Source: an uncultured Lysobacterales bacterium
GTDB lineage: Bacteria > Pseudomonadota > Gammaproteobacteria > Xanthomonadales > SZUA-36
Direction: 5' to 3'
Assembly: GCA_937995275.1 (NCBI GenBank)
Contig: CALKKN010000232.1
Coordinates: 1 to 13,279, forward strand
DNA: 13,279 bases
In this document: positions 2,012-13,279 of the stretch, one piece after another
Numbering within the stretch: the stretch's first letter is position 1
Layout: the number at the start of each line of letters is the position of its first letter
The notes under the pieces: model-generated
What the model was told of the DNA's origin: nothing
The model's database searches: none
Seen by the model: the letters and a program-made list of their open reading frames with translations, nothing else
Translations under genes and position numbers: made by a program

Positions 2012-3907
2012 TTGAGCAGCGTGGCAACCAAAGACATCAACATTTCGGAGGTCTCCGAACACACCGTCGAGATCATCACCAACTCCGGTGAAGGCGCCCA
2101 GAAGTGCGCCCAGATCTTCGGCCAGACCTGCGCCAAGATGGGCAACGGCGTGTGGACGGTAGAGATCATCCCGGCGGAAATCGAGCCCCCGCACCACACC
2201 GTCACCAGTACGTCGGGCAACATCATCCGCTTCGGCACCGACAAGGTGACCAACTGGGGCGACCAATCGAAGCTGGCCGTCGCGTTCAACGACCAGGTGC
2301 TGTTGTCGCGCCACCGGCTCGACTCGCTCCACGACAACTGCATCATTCTCCAGGAATCCCTCTGGGAGAACCACGAGGACGAGGACATCCGGCGGATGTA
2401 CCGCGAGGCGATGGAGGAGATGTCCTCGAAGAACTACCGATTCGTCAACGTGCCGATCGAAGAGGAGGCGCTGAAGATCGTCTCCAACCCCAGCCATGGC
2501 AAGAACATGTTCGCGCTCGGGCTGCTGGCCGAGATCTACCAGCGCGACGTGTCCATCATCGAGAGGCAGATCGCCCATATCTTCCGCTTGAAGTCCCAGA
2601 AAGTCATCGATTCCAACATCGAGCTGGTGAAGGCCGGTGCCGCCTGGGCGCGCGAGAACCTCGATTTCCAGTTCCATATCCCGTCGGTGCCCGCGGAAGA
2701 AGAGCGCATCGTGATGAACGGCAACCAGGCCTGCGGGCTCGGGTCCATCGCGGCCGGCATGGAACTGTGCTCGATGTACCCCATCACGCCGGCCACATCG
2801 GTGTCGCACGAACTGGCCGAGGTCATCGAGAACTACGGCGGGATCGTGCACCAGGCCGAGGACGAGATCGCCGCAGCCGGCGTGGCGATCGGCGCCTCCT
2901 ATGCCGGCAAGGTCGCCCTGACGGTCACCTCCGGCCCCGGGATGGCGCTGAAGACCGAATTCATTGCGCTGGCCATCATGGTCGAGGTCCCGTTGGTGGT
3001 GCTCGACGTCCAGCGCGGCGGCCCGTCGACCGGGCTGCCGACCAAGGTCGAGCAGTCCGACCTGCTGTCCTCGATTTACGGCCAGCCCGGCGACGCGCCG
3101 CGGGTGGTCATCGCGCCGCGCTCCATCGAGGAATGTTTCCATTCCATGGTCACGGCGCGCCGCATCGCCGAGACTTTCCGCACCGTGGTGATCGTGCTGA
3201 CCGATGCCAACCTGGCCACCGGCGTGCAGCAGTTCACCCGGCCGGAGCTCGACGTGCGCTGGCAGCAGGGTCCAATCGATCAGTCCCCGGTGCCCGAAGG
3301 ACTGCGGCCGTACGAATGGGACCCGAAAACCGGCATGTCCCGGCGGATCATTCCCGGCATGCCCGGCGGCGCGCACACCGTGACCGGCCTGGCGCATGAC
3401 GAGTTGAGCCTGGTTTCCTACCACCCGTCCGGCAACGAGCTCGGCATGCGGATGCGCAGCCGCAAGCTGGCCGTGTTCCAGTCGACCCTGATGCCCCCCG
3501 AGGTGCACGGCGACGAGGAGGGCGACCTGCTGGTCGTCGGCTGGGGATCGACCCACGGCGCCATCGAGGAAGCGGTGGACCGGGCGCGGGCCGAGGGACG
3601 CAAAGTCTCCTCGTGCCAGCTCACCTTCCTGTCGCCGCTGGAGCCGGGCATCAAGGACATCTTCAGCAAATTCGACAAGGTCATGACGGTCGAAATCAAT
3701 TACTCCGACACCGTCGGCGACCCGTACATCACCGAAGAGACCCGCCGCTACGGCCAGCTCGCCTGGTTGCTACGGGCCCACACGCTGATCGACATCGACT
3801 GCTGGACCAGCTGCCCGGGGCAGCCGTTGCGCCCGAAAGACATTTACCAGAACATCATCGCGAAACTCGAACCATCGCAAGACATAGAGATAGGAGAGGC
3901 ATCATGA
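2012..3907 (+). CDS. korA: 2-oxoacid:ferredoxin oxidoreductase, fused gamma-alpha subunit (KorA type)
   Basis: A 631-residue subunit combining the gamma domain (about 15-225) and the alpha domain (about 232-625) of a CoA-dependent 2-oxoacid:ferredoxin oxidoreductase. With KorB it interconverts a 2-oxoacid plus CoA and an acyl-CoA plus CO2, passing electrons to ferredoxin. Alpha-domain hallmarks are YPITPAT at 256-262, EDEIAAAG with Glu285 (thiamine diphosphate region), TSGPGMALKTE, and QRGGPSTGLPTKVEQSD (335-351). The C-terminal half carries a transketolase C-like domain (GWGSTHGAIEEAVD at 510). This two-subunit, fused gamma-alpha architecture is typical of 2-oxoglutarate-specific KorAB and of related enzymes. 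Substrate cannot be proven from sequence; 2-oxoglutarate is the best guess. Its stop overlaps the korB start by four bases. It is the first gene of the long operon, so a promoter is expected in the gap upstream. Confidence 0.88.
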   Translation: MSSVATKDINISEVSEHTVEIITNSGEGAQKCAQIFGQTCAKMGNGVWTVEIIPAEIEPPHHTVTSTSGNIIRFGTDKVTNWGDQSKLAVAFNDQVLLSRHRLDSLHDNCIILQESLWENHEDEDIRRMYREAMEEMSSKNYRFVNVPIEEEALKIVSNPSHGKNMFALGLLAEIYQRDVSIIERQIAHIFRLKSQKVIDSNIELVKAGAAWARENLDFQFHIPSVPAEEERIVMNGNQACGLGSIAAGMELCSMYPITPATSVSHELAEVIENYGGIVHQAEDEIAAAGVAIGASYAGKVALTVTSGPGMALKTEFIALAIMVEVPLVVLDVQRGGPSTGLPTKVEQSDLLSSIYGQPGDAPRVVIAPRSIEECFHSMVTARRIAETFRTVVIVLTDANLATGVQQFTRPELDVRWQQGPIDQSPVPEGLRPYEWDPKTGMSRRIIPGMPGGAHTVTGLAHDELSLVSYHPSGNELGMRMRSRKLAVFQSTLMPPEVHGDEEGDLLVVGWGSTHGAIEEAVDRARAEGRKVSSCQLTFLSPLEPGIKDIFSKFDKVMTVEINYSDTVGDPYITEETRRYGQLAWLLRAHTLIDIDCWTSCPGQPLRPKDIYQNIIAKLEPSQDIEIGEAS

Positions 3908-4857
3908 GTAGTCTGGCCATTTCCCTGCTGGACCTGGAGGCGGACGCCGGAGTCTGTTTCGAAGCTGAGGATTACCAGAAGCGCCCTGGAAAATGGTGTG
4001 CCGGCTGCGGTGATTTCGGCGCCCTGAACGCGGTCAAGCGGCTGCTGGCCAAGGAACAGCTGCAACCGGATAGAATGGTGTTCGTTTCCGGTATCGGCTG
4101 TTCCAGCCGCTTCCCGCACTACGTCAACGCGTACGGCTTCCACGGCATCCACGGCCGCGCGCTGCCGCTGGCATCGGGAATCAAGCTGGCCCGGCCGGAA
4201 CTGGATGTATTCGTGGTCACAGGCGACGGCGACTGCGTCTCGATCGGGGCCGGTCACTGGATCCACGCGATACGCTACAACATGAACATGGTCGTGATGC
4301 TGCTCGACAACAACATCTACGGCCTGACCAAGAACCAGACCTCGCCGACCACCCCGCTGGGCTATTCGTCGATGACCTCGCCCCACGGCGCGCAGCTGCC
4401 GGCTCTGGATCCGCTGCAGGCGACCCTGGGAGTGTCGAACGCTTCCTTCGTCGCGCAGACGGCCGACTGGGTGCCGGCGCACCTGTACGCGACCCTGGAG
4501 GCGGCGTACGACCATCCGGGCTTCTCGTTCATCCGCATTTTGCAGCGCTGCCCGAAATTCACCCCGGATATTTTCGAACAGGCGGTGAAAGACCCCGCCA
4601 GAACTGAACTGCTGGTGCACGAGGATGGCGTGGATCCGCCGGGCCTCGAAAAACTGTACGAGGCCCGCCGCGAACATGACCCCAAGGACATCGACGAAGC
4701 GCGGTCCCTTGCGCGCCGCGATGACATGATCCGCCTCGGGGTGTTCTTCCGCGATGACAGCCTGCCCGTGTACGAGGAAGTGCGGGCCGTACCGAAAGTT
4801 ACGCCGCAGGAGAAGATCAACCGATTGAACAAGGAATTCGAGCGCTATGCCGTCTGA
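3904..4857 (+). CDS. korB: 2-oxoacid:ferredoxin oxidoreductase beta subunit (KorB type)
   Basis: A 317-residue beta subunit that binds thiamine diphosphate and one [4Fe-4S] cluster. Likely cluster ligands are Cys32 and Cys35 (KWCAGCGDFG), Cys66 (SGIGCSSRF) and Cys216 (LQRCPKF). The thiamine-Mg segment is GDGDCVSIGAGHWIHAIRYN from 107, closing with DNNIYGLTKNQTSPT. The length and motif order match KorB/PorB of two-subunit enzymes. There is no separate ferredoxin-like delta subunit next door. The start has an excellent AGGAG (3892-3896, 7 bases away) and overlaps the korA stop as ATGA, so the two subunits should be made in equal amounts. An 11-base overlap leads into the next gene. Confidence 0.92.
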   Translation: MSSLAISLLDLEADAGVCFEAEDYQKRPGKWCAGCGDFGALNAVKRLLAKEQLQPDRMVFVSGIGCSSRFPHYVNAYGFHGIHGRALPLASGIKLARPELDVFVVTGDGDCVSIGAGHWIHAIRYNMNMVVMLLDNNIYGLTKNQTSPTTPLGYSSMTSPHGAQLPALDPLQATLGVSNASFVAQTADWVPAHLYATLEAAYDHPGFSFIRILQRCPKFTPDIFEQAVKDPARTELLVHEDGVDPPGLEKLYEARREHDPKDIDEARSLARRDDMIRLGVFFRDDSLPVYEEVRAVPKVTPQEKINRLNKEFERYAV

Positions 4858-5815
4858 AGAACGAAAGGGCATCGCCCTGGATGCGATCCGCCCGGGCATC
4901 GAGCGGTTCCAGGCGGCCGTCGCGAAAACCGCCGAAGAAGTCCGGGGTCTGCTCGCTGGAACCAGCGACTCGGAAGACGACCAGACGGCGGCCCTGGGAT
5001 TTTTTGCCCGGGGTAAGGTCGACATGGACCGCTTCTCCGCGTTCATGCCGGAGTCGGGGCACATCGACGAGGCCGCCGAAGCGCCGACGCGCGCCGCGCA
5101 GGAAGTAATGGACAGTCTGCTGGCGAGGGGCGACGAACTGTTCGTCCTGACCGTGCAGCAGGGCGAGGAACTGGCCAGCGCGGTCGCGGACAGGCTGGCG
5201 GAGATCGGCCGCGCATTCGCAGCCGCGCACGTGGTCGAACTGGCGCAGCGCCACGAATACAGCGAGGAGAAGCATGCTGGCCTGCTGTCCTGCTACCCGT
5301 TCGCGCAATGGAGCCGCTCGGAACGCTCGCTGGCGCCCGGCCTGGTGATCGAACTGCCGGGCGAGGTGCTCACGCCCGCTTCGATCGTGCCGTTTCTCGA
5401 CCGGGCGACGAAGATCGTTTTCGTCGTCGAGGGCGATGCGCCGGCAGCCGCGCTTTCGCGCGTCGTATCCCCCGGCGTATTCGTGCAGCAGGAAACGGGC
5501 GAAGCGGCACTGGAAGCCTTCACTGCCTTCGATGGCACGGCCGTGGCGGCCCTGATGCCCGACAAGGCGGTGAGCTTTGTGCACGATCCGGCGGCAGGCG
5601 AGACGACCTACGAGCGCTTCGTATCGCTGAACTTCCCCAAGGAAGTCAGGAAGCGCGCCATCGGCGGCATCAGCGCCGCCCAGCAGGCCGAGGATTACGC
5701 CCTGCTGGAAACCCTGTCGGTGGTGCCGTCACCGACAGGCGAGGCGGCCTCCGACCCGGCCGGCAAACTCTCAGCCTGGCTGCTGAGCCAGGCCGATTTG
5801 GCAAGCGGCGGCTAG
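4847..5815 (+). CDS. Unrecognised 322-residue protein of the kor-rnf operon
   Basis: I do not recognise a family. The protein is soluble: no signal peptide, no membrane segment, and a single cysteine (Cys149), so it is not an iron-sulfur carrier. The N-terminal third is helical and rich in Ala and Glu, with an acidic stretch (TSDSEDD, 39-45). Residues 95-135 look like an amphipathic helical region. Residues 165-260 alternate hydrophobic strands and turns (PGLVIELPGEV, KIVFVVEGDAP, VAALMPDKAVSFVHDP) as in an alpha/beta or beta-rich domain. The tail is low-complexity (about 291-322). It overlaps korB by 11 bases and ends 10 bases before rnfB, with AAGGA at 4831-4835 as ribosome binding site. 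The position suggests a scaffold, assembly or regulatory factor linking the oxidoreductase and Rnf. That is guilt by association only. Confidence 0.8.
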   Translation: MPSEERKGIALDAIRPGIERFQAAVAKTAEEVRGLLAGTSDSEDDQTAALGFFARGKVDMDRFSAFMPESGHIDEAAEAPTRAAQEVMDSLLARGDELFVLTVQQGEELASAVADRLAEIGRAFAAAHVVELAQRHEYSEEKHAGLLSCYPFAQWSRSERSLAPGLVIELPGEVLTPASIVPFLDRATKIVFVVEGDAPAAALSRVVSPGVFVQQETGEAALEAFTAFDGTAVAALMPDKAVSFVHDPAAGETTYERFVSLNFPKEVRKRAIGGISAAQQAEDYALLETLSVVPSPTGEAASDPAGKLSAWLLSQADLASGG

Positions 5816-5825
5816 TTACAGGCGC

Positions 5826-6677
5826 ATGACCGGCATCCCCATTCTCGACTCTGCCTTGATTCTCGGCGGCGTGGGGCTGTTCTTCGGCTTCGTGATCTCG
5901 CTGGTGAACAAGCGTTTCCGGGTGTGGGAGGATCCGCGCATCGTCGGCGTCGAAGAGATGCTGCCGAGCACCAACTGCGGCGCCTGCACGCAGCCGGGCT
6001 GCCGGGCTTTCGCCGAAGCCGTGGTGGCCGGCAGCCAGCAGCCTTCGGACTGCACGGTGATGGGGCCCGAAGACATCGACGACGTGGCCAGCTACCTGGG
6101 CGTCGACGCCGGCGAGGCGAACAAACGCGTCGCCCGTTTGCTCTGCGCCGGGGGCAAGAACGAAGCCCATCGCGAGGCCGACTATTCCGGCTTCGAGACC
6201 TGCAAGGCGGCCTCGGCCGTCGCCGGGGGTGGCAAGGGCTGCACCTGGGGCTGCCTGGGCCTGGCGGACTGCGAGGTCGTCTGCCTGCTGGATGCGATCT
6301 ACATGAACGAGGACGAACTGCCGGTGGTAATCCCGGAACGCTGCACGGCCTGCAACGATTGCGTGGAGACCTGTCCCAAGGACCTGTTCGTGCTGATGCC
6401 GCTCGACCACAAGCTGATCGTGCAGTGCCGGAACCTGCTGCACGGCGACGATGCCGAGGAGCTGTGCAGCGTGGCCTGCAACGCCTGCTCGAAGTGCGTC
6501 GCCGACGCCGCGCCCGGCCTCATCGAAATGGTCGACAACCTGGCCGTGGTCGATTACGAAAAGATCGCCCTGGCTGATCCGAAAGCCGTTTCGCGATGCC
6601 CCACGGACGCCATCGTCTGGGTTGAAGGTCAGCAGTTTGCAGACAGCGCCGAAGCGCTGGAGAGAAGAGCCGTATGA
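5826..6677 (+). CDS. rnfB: RnfB-like multi-cluster electron-transfer subunit (long form)
   Basis: A 283-residue protein with an N-terminal membrane helix (about 5-27), then the Fes domain NCGACTQPGC (Cys51, 54, 59, with Cys76). Next is the CKAAS...GCTWGCLGLADCEVVC region (Cys126, 139, 143, 149, 153) and a CxxCxxCxxxCP ferredoxin motif (Cys173, 176, 179, 183). The C-terminal part is partly degenerate (Cys214, 218, 221, 224, and CP at 258-259). RnfB accepts electrons from or donates them to ferredoxin and passes them on to the ion-pumping Rnf core at the membrane. The length and cysteine layout resemble clostridial-type RnfB more than the roughly 190-residue RnfB/RsxB usual in Gammaproteobacteria. 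Ribosome binding is weak (CAGGCG), so translation may be coupled from the gene 10 bases upstream. Its stop overlaps the next start as ATGA. Confidence 0.88.
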   Translation: MTGIPILDSALILGGVGLFFGFVISLVNKRFRVWEDPRIVGVEEMLPSTNCGACTQPGCRAFAEAVVAGSQQPSDCTVMGPEDIDDVASYLGVDAGEANKRVARLLCAGGKNEAHREADYSGFETCKAASAVAGGGKGCTWGCLGLADCEVVCLLDAIYMNEDELPVVIPERCTACNDCVETCPKDLFVLMPLDHKLIVQCRNLLHGDDAEELCSVACNACSKCVADAAPGLIEMVDNLAVVDYEKIALADPKAVSRCPTDAIVWVEGQQFADSAEALERRAV

Positions 6678-9600
6678 AGTCCAGCGAAACCCAGGCCCGA
6701 TTCCGCGGATTGTTGACGACGGGTGATGGCAGCTCGGCGGTCGTCGCCATGGAGACCGCGGCCAGCGAGGCAGCCGGGGCCTATCCCATCACGCCAGCCA
6801 CCAAGATGGGCGAAGAGTGGATGTCGGCGGCCGCTGCGGGTGCGAAGAACGTCAACGGGCGCACCCTGATCGCGTTCGAACCCGAAGGGGAACACGCCGC
6901 CGCGGGCGTCACGGCCGGTATGAGCATGGTAGGCCTGCGCGCCACCAATTTCGCCAGCGGTCAGGGCATCGCGTACATGCACGAATCGCTGTACGCGGCC
7001 GTCGGCAAGCGGCTGACCTACGTGCTGAACGTGGCCTGCCGCGCGATGACCAAACAGTCGCTGAACATCCACGCGGGCCATGACGATTACCACGCCGTCG
7101 CCGACACCGGCTTCTTCCAGCTCTTCGCCAGAGACGTCCAGAGCGTGGCCGACCTGAACCTGGTGTCGCACCGCATCGCCGAGCTGTCCCTGAACCCCGG
7201 CATCTGCGCGCAGGACGGTTTTCAGACCAGCCACGTGATCGAGTCCTACCGCCAGCCCGAGCGCGAACTGATCCGCGAGTACCTGGGCGATCCGGCCGAT
7301 CTGATCGAGACACCCACTCCGGCCCAGCGCTCCGTTTTCGGCGAACAGCGGCGGCGCATTCCCGAACTCTTCGATTTCGACTACCCGGCCAGCCTCGGCG
7401 TGGTTCAGAACCAGGAGTCCTACGCGCAGGGCGTGGCGGCCCAGCGGCCGTTCTATTTCGACCACATCGCCGGGCTGGCTGACCGCGCCTTCGAGGAATA
7501 CGCGGCGCTGACCGGCCGCACCTACGGGCGGGCGATGGGTTATCGCCTGGAAGACGCGGACTACGTCATCGTGGGCCAGGGTTCGGTCGTCTGCAACGCG
7601 GAAGCCGTCGCCGATTACCTGCGGGAGAAACGGCGTCTGAAGGTCGGCGTCCTGAACCTGGTGATGTTTCGACCCTTCCCGGCCGACCTCGTGACTCAAA
7701 TGCTCGCCGGAAAGAAAGGCGTGGTCGTCCTGGAGCGAACGGATCAGCCGCTGGCCGTCGAACTGCCGATGATCCGTGAAATCCGGTCCGCACTGGCGCA
7801 GGCCGCCGAAAACGGCCGCGCGACCAACGGGAAGGCGAAGCGCAGCCGCAGGACCAGGAAGGCCGTACCGGAAACCGCCCTGCCCTATCCGGGGTTGGCG
7901 GCCCTCGCGGGCGACCAGGTCCCGGACCTGTACTCCGGCTGCTTCGGTCTGGGCGGCCGCGATCTGCAGCCGGGCGACCTCGTCGCCGCCGTCGACAACA
8001 TGCTCGAAGGCGGCCGGCGGCAGCGGCGGTTCTACCTCGGCATCGAATTCATTCACAAAGATACCCCGCTTCCCAAGGTCGAAATCTGGCAGGAGAACAT
8101 CCTCGCCGATTACCCGCACGTAGCCGAGCTGGCGCTGCCCTCGGCCGGGGACCTGAACCTCAACCCCGAGGAATCCATCGAGCTGCGCATATATTCCATC
8201 GGCGGATGGGATGTCATCGGCGCGGGCGACGACCTGATGACCGCTGCGGCAGAGCTGTTCGGCATGCACGTGAAGGCCTACCCGCGGCACGGCCGTGAGA
8301 AGCGCGGGCAACCCACGACCTACTCCGGCGTGCTGTCGAACGAGCCCCTGCGGGTGAATTGCGAGCTGCAGCACGTCGACCTGGTCATGGCGCACGACCC
8401 GAACGTCTTCTTACATTCCGACCCGCTGGAAGGCATGCGAAAGGGCGGGATTCTGATCCTGCAGAGCGATCTTTCCGGGGCGGACCTCTGGAACAGCTTG
8501 CCGCAGACTGCCCAGTGGGCCATCCGCGAGCGGCAGATCAGGGTCTGCGCGGTGGACGCCATCGGTATCGCCCGGGCGGAATCCCCGGAGCCGTCCGCGC
8601 GTTACAGCATGCAGGGCCTGGCGTTCATGGGCGCGTTTTTCAACGCTGCTTCCCTGGTGGGCCGCAAGGGGCTCGCGCGCGACCGCCTGTTCGAAGGCCT
8701 GCGCGAGCGCCTGGCCGGACAATTCGGGCAGCGGGACGCGGCAGCCGTCGAGGACGACCTCCACGTGCTGATGCGCGGCTTCGACGAAGTTCAACCGCTC
8801 GACCTGGCCGGCCTGGGCGACGAGGGCCGACCCTCGCGGATTCCCCTGATACCGGTCGCCATGGCCGGTGCCGAAGCCGGCAAGGGCGTCGGCAACCAGG
8901 GCGAATTCTGGGACCAGGTCTGCGCACTGTACAAGACCGGGACCGACGTGCTCGCGGACCCATTCACGGCTATCAGCGCAATACCCGCCGCGACGTCCAC
9001 GATGCGCGACATGTCGTCGGTGCGCCAACTGGTGCCGCAGTTCATCCCCGACAAATGCACCGGCTGCAGCAAATGCTGGGTGCAATGCCCCGACTCGGCC
9101 ATTCCCGGCGTCGTCAGCACGGTCGAGGAAGTCATCGATTCGGCGATCAGGACCGTGTCCTCGCCGCAGAATCCCCTGTCCCGGCTGACCCCGATCGTCA
9201 GGCACCTCGGTGCCGCGTCACGCAAGATCCTGGCCGCCGAACCGTTCGAGACTTACGGCGCCGTGCTCGCCCAGGCTTATGAAAAGGTGGCCGAAAAGTC
9301 CAAGTGGAACGACGAACGGCGCGCCGAAGTGGATGTGGAATTCCAGCAGGTCCAGGCGGCACTGGCGGATTTTCCCCTGGCCCGGACCGCGCCGTTTTTC
9401 GAACTGCCCGAATCCGAGAAGAAGGGCACGGGCGGCCTGCTCTCCATAACCGTCAACCCGGAAACCTGCAAGGGCTGCGATGTCTGCGTGGCCGTCTGCG
9501 ACGACGGCGCGCTGATCAGCGTGCCGCAGACGGACGAGATGCAGGAGACGCTCGAGGCGAACTGGAGGCTGTGGAAAAACCTGCCCGAAACCGACGACGG

Positions 9601-11728
9601 CTACATCCGGATCTCCAGCCTCGAGGACAGCATTGGCGTGATGCCGTCACTGCTGCTCAAGCAGCGCAATTACCTGTCCATGCTGGGAGGCGACAACGCC
9701 TGCATGGGCTGCGGCGAAAAGACCGCCATCCACCTGGTGCTCTCGGCCGTGAACGCGGTCATGGCGCCGCGGGTGGAGGAACACGTGGCCGAGCTGGACG
9801 GGCTGGTGAAGGAACTGGACGAGCAGGCCCGGACGATGTTGATCTCGGGAACCGACCTGGCCGCCGTGTCGGTCGATGCCGAAGGCCTCGAAGTACCGGT
9901 CGAAAAAGACACCAAGGAACGGGTTGCGCTGATCCATCGAACCATCGAGGAACTGAAGGACCTCAAGTGGCGCTACGAGAAAGGCCCCAGCGGACGGGGC
10001 CGCGCCCGCATGGGCTTCTCCAACTCCACCGGCTGCACGTCGGTCTGGGGCGCGACCTTCCCGTTCAACCCCTACCCCTTCCCCTGGGTCAGCCACCTGT
10101 TCCAGGACTCGCCTTCGGTGGCGGTGGGGCTGTTCGAGGGCCATATGCGCAAGATGGCGGACGGCTTCGTCACCGTGCGCCGCGCGCAGAAACTGGCCGC
10201 CGGCCGCTACGACGCCGAATCCGACGAAGCTTTACTGGCCGATTTCGGCTGGCAACAGTTCACGGACGAGGAATTCGCACTGTGCCCGCCGCTGTTCGCC
10301 GTGGGCGGCGACGGGGCCATGATGGACATCGGTTTCCAGAACCTGTCCCGCCTGATGGCGTCCGGCAAACCGCTACGGGTCGTCGTGGTGGACACCCAGG
10401 CCAGTTCCGCCGGCGGCCAGGGCTGCAGCGCCGGCTTCCGCGGCCAAATTCCGGACATCACCGACCCGGGCCGCGAGCGGAAGGGCAAGGAAGAATACCG
10501 CAAGGAACTGGCGTTGATCTCGATGGCGCACCGCGGCACCTACGTGATGCAGTCCTCGCAGGCCACGCCCTCGCACCTGTTCAAACACCTCCTGCGGGGG
10601 CTACAGGTCCGGCGTCCCGCGGTGTTTATCCTGAACGCACCGTGCCCGCGCGAATGGGGCATCGCCCAGGACAGTGCGCCGGAGGCAGCCCGCCTGGCAC
10701 TGGAAAGCCGCGCGGTTCCCAACATCGTGTTCGATCCGGACCGGGGCGGGAACTTTTCCGAGTGCCTCGACCTGGAGGGCAATCCCTCGCCGGAGGACCG
10801 CTGGGCCAGCCGTGAATTGATCTACGTCGACGAGGAGGGCGAGGAGCAGCGGATGGAGCTGCCGCTCACCATCGCCGACTGGGCACTGGGCGAGGAGCGG
10901 TTTCGGGCGCACTTCTTCGAGCCCGAGGAAGGGACCGAGCTGGTCCCGTTCCACGAATACCTCGAACTGGACGAGGCCGGGCGCACCGCTGCGGATCCCT
11001 ATATCTACACCGTCGACGGGGACCGGCGGCTCGGCGAGATCTGCGTTTCCGCCGAGTTGGTGGACCTGGCCGAGGAACGCCTCCGTTACTGGGCCCAACT
11101 CAAGGAACTGGCGGGCATCGAGGTCTCCGAGCACATGCGCGAAGCGGTCGGCGAAGGCGTCTCCCGCAAGCTGGAGCAGAAACTCGCCGACCTGAAGACC
11201 GAGTACGAGGACAAGATTGCGCAGCTGACCTCCCAATACCCGATCCTGATCGCGCGCAAGATCGCCGAGGGCCTGCTGAAGGCGAACGGCAACGAAACCG
11301 TCTCGCAACTGCTGGAAAAGGCCGAAAGCTGGAAAGGCCCGGCCTTCAAGCCCTCGCCAGGCATGGCTTTCGGCGCCGCACCGGCGGCCGAAATGGAGGC
11401 GCAGGAAGCCGCGGCGGTGGAACCGGTACCGGCCGAGGGGCCGCCCCCGGTTGCCGAGGAAGACGAAGATGAGGCGCTGTCCAACGAGGCCTGGATCGAA
11501 ACCATCCGCTGCACCTCCTGCGACGAATGCACGGCGATCAACAACAAGTTGTTCGCCTACAACGAAGAAGGGCAGGCCTATATTGCCGATGCCGGGGCCG
11601 GAACGTTCCGGCAACTGGTGGAAGCCGCTGAGAAGTGCGCGCCGGCGATCATTCACCCCGGCGATCCGCTCAATCCGGACGAGAAGGGACTGGAGCAACT
11701 GGTCAAGCGAGCCGAGCCGTTCAACTGA
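6674..11728 (+). CDS. Giant NifJ-like 2-oxoacid:ferredoxin oxidoreductase with C-terminal ferredoxin domain
   Basis: A 1684-residue single-chain enzyme of the pyruvate:ferredoxin oxidoreductase (NifJ/PFOR) superfamily, usually about 1170-1200 residues. Domains in order: alpha (15-375; YPITPAT with Thr40, Glu73, Arg123, and QDGFQTSH); a polybasic linker (382-396); gamma (about 500-700); two [4Fe-4S] motifs (Cys795/798/801/805 and Cys932/935/938/942); thiamine domain (about 1005-1370) with cluster cysteines 1010, 1013, 1121 and 1324 and GDGAMMDIG at 1212; an extra region with a charged helix (1498-1515); an Ala/Glu/Pro-rich linker (about 1560-1605); and a terminal one-cluster ferredoxin-like domain (Cys1613/1616/1619 and Cys1655). 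It should interconvert a 2-oxoacid and its acyl-CoA, with electrons leaving through the attached ferredoxin. The substrate is uncertain because the SNTGGQ motif of classic PFOR reads SSAGGQ. GGAGA (6659-6663) precedes the start. It lies between rnfB and rnfC, overlapping both. Confidence 0.88.
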   Translation: MKSSETQARFRGLLTTGDGSSAVVAMETAASEAAGAYPITPATKMGEEWMSAAAAGAKNVNGRTLIAFEPEGEHAAAGVTAGMSMVGLRATNFASGQGIAYMHESLYAAVGKRLTYVLNVACRAMTKQSLNIHAGHDDYHAVADTGFFQLFARDVQSVADLNLVSHRIAELSLNPGICAQDGFQTSHVIESYRQPERELIREYLGDPADLIETPTPAQRSVFGEQRRRIPELFDFDYPASLGVVQNQESYAQGVAAQRPFYFDHIAGLADRAFEEYAALTGRTYGRAMGYRLEDADYVIVGQGSVVCNAEAVADYLREKRRLKVGVLNLVMFRPFPADLVTQMLAGKKGVVVLERTDQPLAVELPMIREIRSALAQAAENGRATNGKAKRSRRTRKAVPETALPYPGLAALAGDQVPDLYSGCFGLGGRDLQPGDLVAAVDNMLEGGRRQRRFYLGIEFIHKDTPLPKVEIWQENILADYPHVAELALPSAGDLNLNPEESIELRIYSIGGWDVIGAGDDLMTAAAELFGMHVKAYPRHGREKRGQPTTYSGVLSNEPLRVNCELQHVDLVMAHDPNVFLHSDPLEGMRKGGILILQSDLSGADLWNSLPQTAQWAIRERQIRVCAVDAIGIARAESPEPSARYSMQGLAFMGAFFNAASLVGRKGLARDRLFEGLRERLAGQFGQRDAAAVEDDLHVLMRGFDEVQPLDLAGLGDEGRPSRIPLIPVAMAGAEAGKGVGNQGEFWDQVCALYKTGTDVLADPFTAISAIPAATSTMRDMSSVRQLVPQFIPDKCTGCSKCWVQCPDSAIPGVVSTVEEVIDSAIRTVSSPQNPLSRLTPIVRHLGAASRKILAAEPFETYGAVLAQAYEKVAEKSKWNDERRAEVDVEFQQVQAALADFPLARTAPFFELPESEKKGTGGLLSITVNPETCKGCDVCVAVCDDGALISVPQTDEMQETLEANWRLWKNLPETDDGYIRISSLEDSIGVMPSLLLKQRNYLSMLGGDNACMGCGEKTAIHLVLSAVNAVMAPRVEEHVAELDGLVKELDEQARTMLISGTDLAAVSVDAEGLEVPVEKDTKERVALIHRTIEELKDLKWRYEKGPSGRGRARMGFSNSTGCTSVWGATFPFNPYPFPWVSHLFQDSPSVAVGLFEGHMRKMADGFVTVRRAQKLAAGRYDAESDEALLADFGWQQFTDEEFALCPPLFAVGGDGAMMDIGFQNLSRLMASGKPLRVVVVDTQASSAGGQGCSAGFRGQIPDITDPGRERKGKEEYRKELALISMAHRGTYVMQSSQATPSHLFKHLLRGLQVRRPAVFILNAPCPREWGIAQDSAPEAARLALESRAVPNIVFDPDRGGNFSECLDLEGNPSPEDRWASRELIYVDEEGEEQRMELPLTIADWALGEERFRAHFFEPEEGTELVPFHEYLELDEAGRTAADPYIYTVDGDRRLGEICVSAELVDLAEERLRYWAQLKELAGIEVSEHMREAVGEGVSRKLEQKLADLKTEYEDKIAQLTSQYPILIARKIAEGLLKANGNETVSQLLEKAESWKGPAFKPSPGMAFGAAPAAEMEAQEAAAVEPVPAEGPPPVAEEDEDEALSNEAWIETIRCTSCDECTAINNKLFAYNEEGQAYIADAGAGTFRQLVEAAEKCAPAIIHPGDPLNPDEKGLEQLVKRAEPFN

Positions 11729-13056
11729 TGGGCGTCCGCGACTTACTCACCTTCCGGAACGGGGTGCATCCCCCCGAGAACAAGCACCTGACCGAAGGGG
11801 TTCGCTCGCGGCGGCTGCCGTTCCCGGAGGAGGTGATCCTGCCGCTGTCGCAGCACATCGGCACCCCGGCGAGGGCCCTGGTGAAGGCGGGCGACCGGAT
11901 CGAGCGCGGCGACGTCATCGCGGAGGCGGCGGGACTCGTTTCCTCGCGCGTGCACGCCACCGCGTCGGGTACGGTGAAGGCGGTCGAGCACTGGCCGCAC
12001 CCGAGCGGCTCGATGCAACCATCCATCCGGATCGAGGTCGACCCGCACTCCACCCAGATGCAGCGGCCGCGCCTGGTGCCGCACTGGGACGAGGTGCCGC
12101 CGGAGCAACTGTCGGAGGAGATCAGCAAGGCGGGCATCGTCGGCCTCGGCGGCGCGGCCTTCCCGATGCACGTCAAGCTGCGGCCGCCGGCGGACCAGCC
12201 GATCGAGGTGCTGATGGTCAATGGCTGTGAATGCGAGCCGTACCTGACCTCGGACCATCGCACCATGCTCGAGCGCCCCGAGGAGGTGCACCTGGGCATC
12301 CGTATCGTATTGCGGGCACTGGGCATCGACCGGGCCGTGATCGGCATCGAGGCCAACAAGCCCGACGCCGTCGAGGTGATGCGGCAGACCGCGCCGGCGG
12401 ACCTGGACGTTTCCGTCCAGCCACTGAAGGTCAAGTATCCGCAGGGCGCTGAAAAAATGCTGATCAAGGCGGTGACGGGCCGCGAGGTGCCGTCGGGCAA
12501 ACTGCCGGCCTCCGTCGGCGCCCTGGTGCAGAATGTCGCCACCACCGCCAACGTCGCGCGCATCTTCGAGACCGGGCAGCCGCTGATTGAACGCATCATG
12601 ACGGTCTCGGGCCGCGGCGTACGGAACCCGGGCAACTGGGTCATTCCCTTCGGCACCAGGCTCAGCGACGTGATCGCGGCCTGCGGCGGCTTTACGGATG
12701 ATGCCTCCGAGATCGTGTTCGGCGGCCCCATGATGGGCCAGAGCCAGGCCAGTCTCGACGTGCCCGTGCTGAAGGCCACCGGCGGCATCCTGGTGTTGTC
12801 GAAGGACGAGTGCAAGCGCCAGGACATTCTGCCCTGCATCCGCTGCGGCAAGTGCCTCGATGCCTGCCCGGTGTTCCTCAATCCCCAGTTGATGGGTGCG
12901 CTGGCGCGGGTCGACCGCTTCGAGGAGATGGTCGAAACCAACCTCAATGATTGCATGTTGTGCGGCTGCTGCTCCTACGTCTGCCCTTCCAACATTCCCC
13001 TGTCGCAGCTGTTCGCGATGTCGAAAATCCAGCTCAGCAGGTTGAAGGCGGCATGA
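11728..13056 (+). CDS. rnfC: RnfC, NADH-side subunit of the Rnf complex
   Basis: A 442-residue peripheral subunit that handles electrons between NAD(H) and the Rnf membrane core. Seen in order: the RnfC N-terminal region (FRNGVHPPENK), a glycine-rich GLGGAAFP at 139-146 of the NuoF-like FMN/NADH fold, VNGCECEPYLTSDHR (165-179), GGPMMGQ (332-338), and two [4Fe-4S] motifs (CIRCGKCLDACP at 370-381 and CMLCGCCSYVCP at 409-420). The short form lacks the long Ala/Lys-rich repeat tail found in E. coli RsxC (about 740 residues). The start is ATG 11728, overlapping the previous stop as TGATG. Upstream in-frame codons back to 11635 lie inside the giant oxidoreductase gene and are unlikely starts. Its stop overlaps rnfD as ATGA. 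Confidence 0.95.
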   Translation: MGVRDLLTFRNGVHPPENKHLTEGVRSRRLPFPEEVILPLSQHIGTPARALVKAGDRIERGDVIAEAAGLVSSRVHATASGTVKAVEHWPHPSGSMQPSIRIEVDPHSTQMQRPRLVPHWDEVPPEQLSEEISKAGIVGLGGAAFPMHVKLRPPADQPIEVLMVNGCECEPYLTSDHRTMLERPEEVHLGIRIVLRALGIDRAVIGIEANKPDAVEVMRQTAPADLDVSVQPLKVKYPQGAEKMLIKAVTGREVPSGKLPASVGALVQNVATTANVARIFETGQPLIERIMTVSGRGVRNPGNWVIPFGTRLSDVIAACGGFTDDASEIVFGGPMMGQSQASLDVPVLKATGGILVLSKDECKRQDILPCIRCGKCLDACPVFLNPQLMGALARVDRFEEMVETNLNDCMLCGCCSYVCPSNIPLSQLFAMSKIQLSRLKAA

Positions 13057-13279
13057 AGGACTCCATCGTCAAGATCACCGCCGCGCCGCACGTACGCTCG
13101 GCTGAATCCACCACCCGCATCATGTGGTCGGTGGTACTGAGCCTGCTGCCGGTGACCGGCGCGTCGATCTGGCTGTTCGGGCCAAGCGCCCTGCTGGTGA
13201 TCCTGGTCAGCGTGGCCGGCTGCCTGCTGACCGAGCGCCTGTTCGGTGGCGAGCGCAATTCGATATCCGACGGTTCGGC
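13053..13279 (+). CDS. rnfD: RnfD, membrane subunit of the Rnf complex (partial)
   Basis: The first 75 residues of an integral membrane subunit, cut by the window edge. The N-terminus KITAAPHVRSAESTTRIMWSV matches the usual RnfD/NqrB opening of SSPH-like residues followed by a first membrane helix. Hydrophobic segments run about 24-42 and 46-61, and the fragment ends in SISDGS, the start of the conserved SDGSA block. RnfD carries a covalently bound flavin further downstream, not visible here, and forms part of the ion-translocating core. GAAGG (13044-13048) precedes the start. Further genes (rnfG, rnfE, rnfA) would be expected to the right. Confidence 0.9.
   Translation, partial: MKDSIVKITAAPHVRSAESTTRIMWSVVLSLLPVTGASIWLFGPSALLVILVSVAGCLLTERLFGGERNSISDGS

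Follow-up and report, generated by a model that had tools for sequence, protein, structure and literature searches.

2-Oxoacid:ferredoxin oxidoreductase genes within an rnf operon whose gene order is conserved across several phyla

Why would genes for two 2-oxoacid:ferredoxin oxidoreductases lie inside an operon for the Rnf complex? The question is raised by contig CALKKN010000232.1 (13,279 nucleotides; the whole contig is referred to here as the window), which belongs to an uncultured Lysobacterales bacterium. Its genome assembly (GCA_937995275.1) comprises 2.59 Mb in 379 contigs and is 78% complete. An earlier sequence-only reading of the window described the order korA-korB-unknown-rnfB-giant NifJ-rnfC-rnfD and suggested a dedicated unit in which Rnf and 2-oxoacid enzymes share low-potential electrons. 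We find that this order is conserved across several phyla. From the sequence evidence, we conclude that the operon encodes an Rnf-linked module in which 2-oxoglutarate (through KorAB) and probably pyruvate (through a giant protein related to pyruvate:ferredoxin oxidoreductase, PFOR) would exchange electrons with Rnf via PFOR-borne clusters.

The forward strand carries arsR, acr3, korA, korB, a 322-amino-acid gene without a family (labeled UNK), rnfB, the giant PFOR-like gene, rnfC, and the start of rnfD (Table 1). The order first described is thus confirmed, all on one strand, and so is the tight packing, with every junction either an overlap or a 10-base gap (korA/korB −4, korB/UNK −11, UNK/rnfB +10, rnfB/PFOR −4, PFOR/rnfC −1, and rnfC/rnfD −4 bases). 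The start of korA is ambiguous between ATG 1979, TTG 2012 (preceded by GGAG), and 2021.

Most of the proposed gene identities hold. KorA scores above the TIGR03710 cut-off (516.7 vs. 482.75 bits); KorB falls below that of TIGR02177 (226.5 vs. 261.9 bits) and exceeds that of the Pfam family TPP_enzyme_C. The fused gamma-alpha KorA and the CxxC, GIGCS, and GDGD motifs of KorB are the sequence features expected of a two-subunit 2-oxoglutarate:ferredoxin oxidoreductase (OGOR). By sequence, the closest solved structure to both is the Magnetococcus marinus enzyme (6n2n/6n2o; the 6n2n entry is titled 2-oxoglutarate:ferredoxin oxidoreductase), with E 1.8e-79 for KorA and 7.9e-50 for KorB against 6n2n chain B. 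KorAB differs from that enzyme in lying within an Rnf operon, paired with UNK, and its substrate is one that we infer. RnfB (TIGR01944, 80.6 bits, cut-off 68.7; PF04060 above cut-off) and RnfC (TIGR01945, 526.7 bits, cut-off 245.95; PF01512, PF10531, and PF13375, of the Nuo51/SLBB type) are clear family members. The 75 residues of RnfD are recognized by PF03116 (54.6 vs. 27.7 bits) and stay below the TIGR01946 cut-off (37.9 vs. 207 bits). The giant exceeds the cut-offs of POR_N, POR, and PFOR_II (PF01855, PF17147, and PF01558). Its identification as NifJ did not stand: its score with the NifJ equivalog TIGR02176 is 328 bits, short of the 911.35 cut-off, which makes it a separate branch of the PFOR superfamily. 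The 120 best relatives listed for it include full-length proteins with 59 to 86% identity.

To count gene order, we scanned the contigs of GTDB representatives with an alignment of 13 giant sequences, confirmed at least 559 relatives, and kept the best 80 loci. Counts refer to the window plus 79 of these (80 in total), L089 being left out because it duplicates L081 in inverted orientation on one contig; since all loci were found through the giant, the counts are conditional on it. Of the loci that can be tested, 63 of 64 have rnfB directly before the giant and 56 of 57 have rnfC directly after it. The full korA-korB-UNK-rnfB series precedes the giant in 45 of 51 loci (46 if L050 is counted, where UNK is a split hit), and rnfC-D-G-A/E-A/E follows it in 41 of 44, with split hits in two of the remaining three. 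True exceptions are L060, which has korB-UNK-PFOR without rnf, and L037, which has a short rnfC hit and no rnfDGEA within the next 10 kb. The record titles of the scan loci name Gammaproteobacteria (Lysobacterales, Halieaceae, and Woeseiaceae), Gemmatimonadota, Planctomycetota, Rokubacteria, Deltaproteobacteria, Hydrogenedentota, Calditrichales, KSB1, and others. Most of the loci in which it can be judged have the order korA-korB-UNK-rnfB-PFOR-rnfC-D-G-A/E-A/E. A further clustered gene, which we take to be apbE, is present in 29 loci.

An assembly artefact or chimera, conceivable for a short contig of a fragmented genome, is refuted by the identical order in dozens of separate assemblies, and we give it practically no credence. 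The same comparison supplies what the contig lacks. The window ends inside rnfD, so the continuation into rnfG/E/A lies outside it and is visible in the homologous loci. RnfB, C, D, G, and A/E are all recognizable there, as in the known Rnf complex (rnfABCDGE/rnfCDGEAB), from which these loci differ in having a PFOR gene between rnfB and rnfC and korAB-UNK upstream. The flavin motif [ST]GA[TS] is found in 46 of 48 RnfG; with an identical pattern, only 19 of 47 RnfD have it. In pairwise comparisons, PFOR identities track those of RnfB, RnfC, RnfD, RnfG, KorA, and UNK (r 0.71 to 0.86) and correlate weakly with those of KorB (0.30), a result that shared descent alone could produce. The contig that holds both L081 and L089 (JAJFLA010000003.1) carries one 21.7-kb stretch at both ends in opposite orientation, probably an assembly palindrome.

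The giant shares its domains and catalytic residues with the NifJ-type PFORs of Moorella (6cin) and Desulfovibrio africanus (1b0p). It is longer (about 1,680 vs. 1,171 to 1,232 amino acids), has a wider spacing between cluster motifs, and has a tethered ferredoxin domain. We counted residue conservation in 200 giants (80 loci and 120 proteins, redundancy kept), with the roles of the thiamine pyrophosphate (TPP) motif, proximal-cluster cysteines, and substrate arginine and glutamate taken from known PFORs. All eight Cys columns of the internal ferredoxin domain are kept, with a single exception at one position. The four proximal-cluster cysteines, GGDG, R123, and E73 hardly vary among the giants and are intact in the window. 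The active-site loop, YSNTGGQ in most relatives, reads SSAGGQ in the window, with similar forms in dozens of relatives; its Asn presumably has the role assigned in work on D. africanus PFOR.

Beyond the domains of known PFORs, the giant is predicted to carry a ferredoxin domain of its own on a flexible linker. A profile comparison links residues 1603 to 1684 to D. africanus ferredoxin I (E 7e-6), and a Foldseek search with the modeled C-terminal domain matches 1fxr_A (E 6.5e-3, target TM score 0.84, rmsd 1.5 Å over 60 columns). In the predicted model of residues 940 to 1684, the linker has a pLDDT below 50. The four cysteines of the tethered domain are present in 187 of the 200 giants; the remaining 13 are truncated, chiefly at contig ends, or go out of frame ahead of or within the domain. 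A giant-related PFOR is encoded by two adjacent genes in L123 and L124 (genomes G084 and G227; 692+543 and 656+546 amino acids).

The strongest clue to the role of the module comes from a sister operon in Gammaproteobacteria. We distinguish the window's type (type 1, with korAB-UNK), operons without upstream korAB-UNK (type 2), and this sister operon (type 3), whose PFOR is divided between two pseudo-enzyme genes, psC and psN. Type 2 has the order rnfB-PFOR-rnfC-D-G-A/E-A/E and is found in scan loci L091 to L101 (46 to 47% identity) and in ten loci of a gammaproteobacterial sample (L110, L112 to L117, L122, L125, and L126), where 2.5 to 6.5 kb of upstream sequence is covered. In nine of these ten, rnfB adjoins PFOR; in L125 it lies at the far end. 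Several type 2 operons have a ferredoxin-NADP reductase/BoxA-like gene after rnfA/E (a seven-locus cluster; L117 383-1252), with scores below curated cut-offs.

Type 3 has the order korA-korB-psC-rnfB-psN-(...)-rnfC-D-G-A/E. All six genomes (G218, G098, G034, G167, G219, and G102) show korA to psN, and five extend to rnfC. The psC product, 811 to 850 amino acids long where the gene is unbroken (five cases), shares homology with the giant's C-terminal half (hhalign E 1.9e-65). The TPP residues are missing from it in the two loci checked (L109 and L111), and the tethered-ferredoxin cysteines are kept in six of six cases, one of them a split gene. In the psN product (1264 to 1603 amino acids in the six genomes), the internal ferredoxin domain remains, but the tethered ferredoxin is gone, as are most catalytic positions. 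In the protein database, psN has 248 relatives, and all 120 listed of these, whose residues we examined, keep eight of eight internal ferredoxin cysteines and none of the four proximal, catalytic-cluster cysteines. At most two of 11 catalytic positions match in any of the 120: the D of GDG is kept in 101 and its second G in 1, neither residue of the DT motif is kept in any, the E is likewise kept in none, the T is kept in 3, and the substrate-Arg position is R in 86. Sources of psN are named as symbionts of Taylorina, Lucinoma, Bathyaustriella, and Lamellibrachia (presumably thiotrophic), Sedimenticola, Thiotrichaceae, Chromatiales, and Pseudomonadales. In G034, a one-contig genome, korA and psC are spread over several frames (L118 15138-17042 and 11649-14169), through sequencing errors or decay.

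Since psN and psC keep ferredoxin cysteines and lose PFOR catalysis, selection beside Rnf would seem to maintain an electron path and not a catalyst. Such a loss could in principle be under way in the window as well: the giant of its sublineage might be drifting toward a psN-like, nonenzymatic electron scaffold, with KorAB as the sole working input. The SSAGGQ loop and its counterparts in dozens of relatives are consistent with this, as is the fate of psN. We nevertheless judge it improbable, as every other catalytic and proximal-cluster residue checked in the window is intact; it would in any case be compatible with the electron path that we favor.

Type 3 also bears on the substrate of KorAB. 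Genes for succinyl-CoA synthetase (sucC and sucD) lie between psN and rnfC in four of five testable type 3 loci, and the window's KorA and KorB are 56 to 58% and 49% identical, respectively, to the type 3 counterparts compared. On both grounds, 2-oxoglutarate is our best guess for the KorAB substrate. Within the flanks covered, neither the window nor any of the 80 scan loci gave a sucCD match at E ≤ 1e-10. Type 1 comes out as monophyletic in the RnfC tree (support 0.92), where types 2 and 3 fall into one group (0.83); L111, whose contig ends in psN, is represented there by another rnfC-like gene, so that the type 3 group is effectively five. Five type 3 sequences form one clade in the KorA tree (1.0). 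The RnfB tree recovers a type 1 clade (0.89) and a type 2 clade (1.0), and type 3 is not a clade.

The gene psC also offers a way to read UNK. No Pfam or NCBIfam family matches UNK at E ≤ 0.001, a sequence search returned no solved relative (best E 0.22, unrelated), and Foldseek gave no usable match. Comparison by hhalign gives a modest match to psC as the 848/850-amino-acid paralogue of the PFOR C-terminal half (E 1.5e-5, probability 79.5) and a lower one to the giant (E 5.6e-4, probability 29.8). UNK is thus probably a relative of the TPP (beta) half of PFOR without a catalytic site, and we propose that it serves as an adaptor for KorAB. The distribution of UNK follows korB: the two occur together in 53 of 80 loci, neither in 24, and UNK alone in three, where the contig starts within UNK. 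In the window's own class, the UNK profile matches in 16 of 274 genomes, and only the match in the window's own genome is strong (446.9 bits); the others are below 28 bits and, except in G251, lie in giant-PFOR or psC frames, which leaves UNK itself in 1 of 274. Of 200 genomes of the phylum of G283 (record title Gemmatimonadota), 37 have UNK at E ≤ 1e-10. The probable PFOR-derived origin of UNK and the divergence of the giant from NifJ go beyond what the first reading, made from the letters of the window without database searches, had noted.

We give an even chance to the reading that the operon specifies an Rnf complex into which dedicated modules feed electrons from 2-oxoacids, with a full electron path to NAD+ coupled to ion pumping. 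At its TPP site, the giant PFOR would oxidize a 2-oxoacid (probably pyruvate); its internal clusters would carry the electrons to its linker-borne ferredoxin domain, which would dock on RnfB. KorAB, beside which no ferredoxin subunit is encoded, would oxidize 2-oxoglutarate and deliver electrons to UNK, acting as a PFOR-derived adaptor without catalytic residues, and from there to PFOR/RnfB. Rnf would then transfer the electrons to NAD+ and pump Na+ or H+. In NAD-linked pyruvate and 2-oxoglutarate dehydrogenases, the potential drop is about 0.2 V; the cell would conserve this drop, which these enzymes otherwise lose as heat. A bolder form, to which we give somewhat less than an even chance, is a membrane-bound, ion-pumping 2-oxoacid dehydrogenase. 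Here PFOR would be a stoichiometric Rnf subunit by virtue of its tethered ferredoxin, UNK, as a PFOR-derived adaptor, would plug in KorAB, and PFOR in one large branch of the Gammaproteobacteria would have become a catalytically dead electron wire linking 2-oxoglutarate oxidation, with succinyl-CoA synthetase, to Rnf.

Co-transcription would suffice to explain a single operon, and the genes might share one merely through a common need for low-potential electrons, exchanged through the soluble ferredoxin pool with no complex formed. We regard co-regulation alone as unlikely, because the placement of PFOR between rnfB and rnfC is near-invariant across phyla, the ferredoxin is built in, and PFOR pseudo-enzymes are retained beside Rnf. 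The idea of a dedicated unit is thus strongly supported genetically, by the cross-phylum order, the tethered ferredoxin, and the sister operon. A second rnf operon, which the first reading had named as a point against it, does exist: the window's own genome has a canonical rnfABCD beside a metG-like gene, seen up to the contig end (C324, L016), whose RnfC and RnfB are 40% and 31% identical to those of the window. Among 40 hand-picked carrier genomes (26 of type 1, including the window's own, 12 of type 2, and two of type 3), rnfC above cut-off is present in at least two copies in 18 (the own genome among them), in one copy in 21, and in none in one. A second Rnf is thus not the rule, and the module is often the sole Rnf.

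The same 40 genomes bear on the direction of electron flow. The E1 subunit of 2-oxoglutarate dehydrogenase (OGDH) is above cut-off in 31, which rejects KorAB as a plain OGDH replacement. AceE, which covers this type of pyruvate dehydrogenase only, is above cut-off in 18, and a heme-copper oxidase-family subunit is found in 38, a family that also takes in NO reductases. RuBisCO reaches at least 200 bits in 12 genomes, namely 3 of 26 of type 1, 7 of 12 of type 2, and 2 of 2 of type 3. The window's own genome has SucA and AceE; in it we found no RuBisCO, no NifH above cut-off, and no COX1 family member. As NAD-linked dehydrogenases are present in most carriers, the module is mostly an addition to them.

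The assembly could also run in reverse, with Rnf using ion-motive force and NADH to reduce PFOR and KorAB for reductive carboxylation to pyruvate and 2-oxoglutarate, in a reverse or reversed-oxidative tricarboxylic acid (TCA) cycle or in anaplerosis. The reverse TCA cycle has two ferredoxin-dependent carboxylases, PFOR and KorAB; for oxidation, AceE and SucA are already present in the window's own genome; RuBisCO is frequent with types 2 and 3; and type 3 occurs in symbionts that we take to be thiotrophic. In addition, for tubeworm symbionts, the accessible parts of two studies connect carbon fixation with Rnf and OGOR (PMC6315080, PMC11636981). Set against these points are the many genomes with OGDH and oxidases and the rarity of RuBisCO among type 1 genomes (ATP-citrate lyase was not searched for). 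We consider the reversed direction rather unlikely overall. For type 1, with RuBisCO in few genomes and oxidases in nearly all, the oxidative direction appears likeliest. The module fits either an energy-conserving alternative when oxygen is low or energy scarce, or a role in carboxylation, which is more likely in types 2 and 3.

Rnf and NifJ both feed nitrogenase in some diazotrophs, and an electron supply of this kind could be imagined here. With NifH above cut-off in only 2 of the 40 carriers, and not in the window's own genome, we hold this to be very improbable.

If the oxidative or the carboxylating reading is true, many environmental bacteria that have oxidase genes as well would carry out the pyruvate and 2-oxoglutarate steps on an ion pump, yielding extra energy per TCA turn or CO2 fixation powered by membrane potential. 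Rnf would have a concrete role in these organisms, genomes with both OGDH and KorAB would be accounted for, and the pseudo-PFORs would represent a natural experiment on an enzyme turning into an electron carrier.

Each component family is already known; in the literature searched, we found no earlier description of their combination in one operon. Among the closest known systems are the reverse TCA clusters of tubeworm symbionts and Thioflavicoccus, in which, in the portions available, OGOR and Rnf genes are linked (PMC6315080, PMC11636981). They differ in having a four-subunit OGOR with Hdr-Flx, and no PFOR inside rnf is described there. Those portions propose direct electron channeling for Hdr-Flx with KorABCD (PMC6315080, 2019; PMC11636981, 2024), and report Rnf integrated in reverse TCA clusters and dimeric korAB colocalized with TCA genes (PMC6315080, 2019), as well as a "PFOR-like" gene that declines, together with a dimeric OGOR, when sulfide is limiting in Riftia (PMC11636981, 2024). 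The dimeric korAB and "PFOR-like" gene of these two studies may correspond to the type 3 operon, which is not given this reading in the parts available. For C. abyssi, the available text gives rnfBCDGEA as consecutive loci. A PFOR inside an rnf operon is not described in the accessible parts of PMC11636981, PMC4853749, PMC6593406, PMC3534657, PMC5317091, PMC12542636, or PMC6315080. A full-text literature search, outside bioRxiv, most subscription journals, and supplements, returned no account of a system in which a ferredoxin-bearing PFOR has its set place between rnfB and rnfC, together with a PFOR-derived adaptor and a pseudo-PFOR branch.

Table 1. Features of the operon in the window, with positions in the 13,279-nucleotide contig.
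Feature	Position	Strand	Evidence
korA, fused gamma+alpha 2-oxoacid:ferredoxin oxidoreductase subunit	2012..3907 (start 1979, 2012 or 2021)	+	TIGR03710, 6n2n
korB, TPP/[4Fe-4S] beta subunit	3904..4857	+	TIGR02177 (below cut-off), 6n2n chain B
UNK, conserved, 322 aa; probable relative of PFOR TPP (beta) domain without catalytic site; proposed KorAB adaptor	4847..5815	+	hhalign
UNK residues 116-266, segment aligning to giant PFOR residues 1157-1373	5192..5644	+	
rnfB, long form, FeS + ferredoxin-type clusters	5826..6677	+	TIGR01944, PF04060
Giant PFOR-like 2-oxoacid oxidoreductase, 1684 aa	6674..11728	+	PF01855, PF17147, PF01558
Giant: internal 2x[4Fe-4S] ferredoxin domain, Cys 795/798/801/805 + 932/935/938/942	9056..9499	+	
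Giant: TPP domain; proximal-cluster Cys 1010, 1013, 1121, 1324; GGDG 1211-1214; SSAGGQ loop	9701..10645	+	
Giant: predicted flexible linker, residues 1558-1602	11345..11479	+	pLDDT <50
Giant: predicted tethered single-[4Fe-4S] ferredoxin domain, Cys 1613/1616/1619/1655	11480..11725	+	profile and fold match
rnfC	11728..13056	+	TIGR01945
rnfD, first 75 codons, truncated by contig end	13053..13279	+	PF03116

Another contig of the window's own genome (C328, L015) was considered as the continuation of rnfD and rejected: its open reading frames, which we take to be Na+-NQR-like nqrB to nqrF, match rnfD/G/A/E relatives at 30 to 42%, and no overlap of its ends with the window was found.

Upstream of korA, the window has an FNR/Anr-like box at 1909-1922 (consensus TTGAT N4 ATCAA), with matching boxes in L022, L023, L028, L030, L081, L109, L111, and L118. 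Such a box (8 to 9 of 10 positions) precedes korA in 9 of 12 gammaproteobacterial loci vs. 2 of 38 others, L094 and L098 being left out because korA is on the opposite strand there; per-locus shuffles, where run, gave p values of 0.02 to 0.16, too weak to claim the box. Further upstream, at 162-1700 and on the same strand, the window encodes ArsR and ACR3 arsenite efflux genes, which end about 310 bases ahead of korA.

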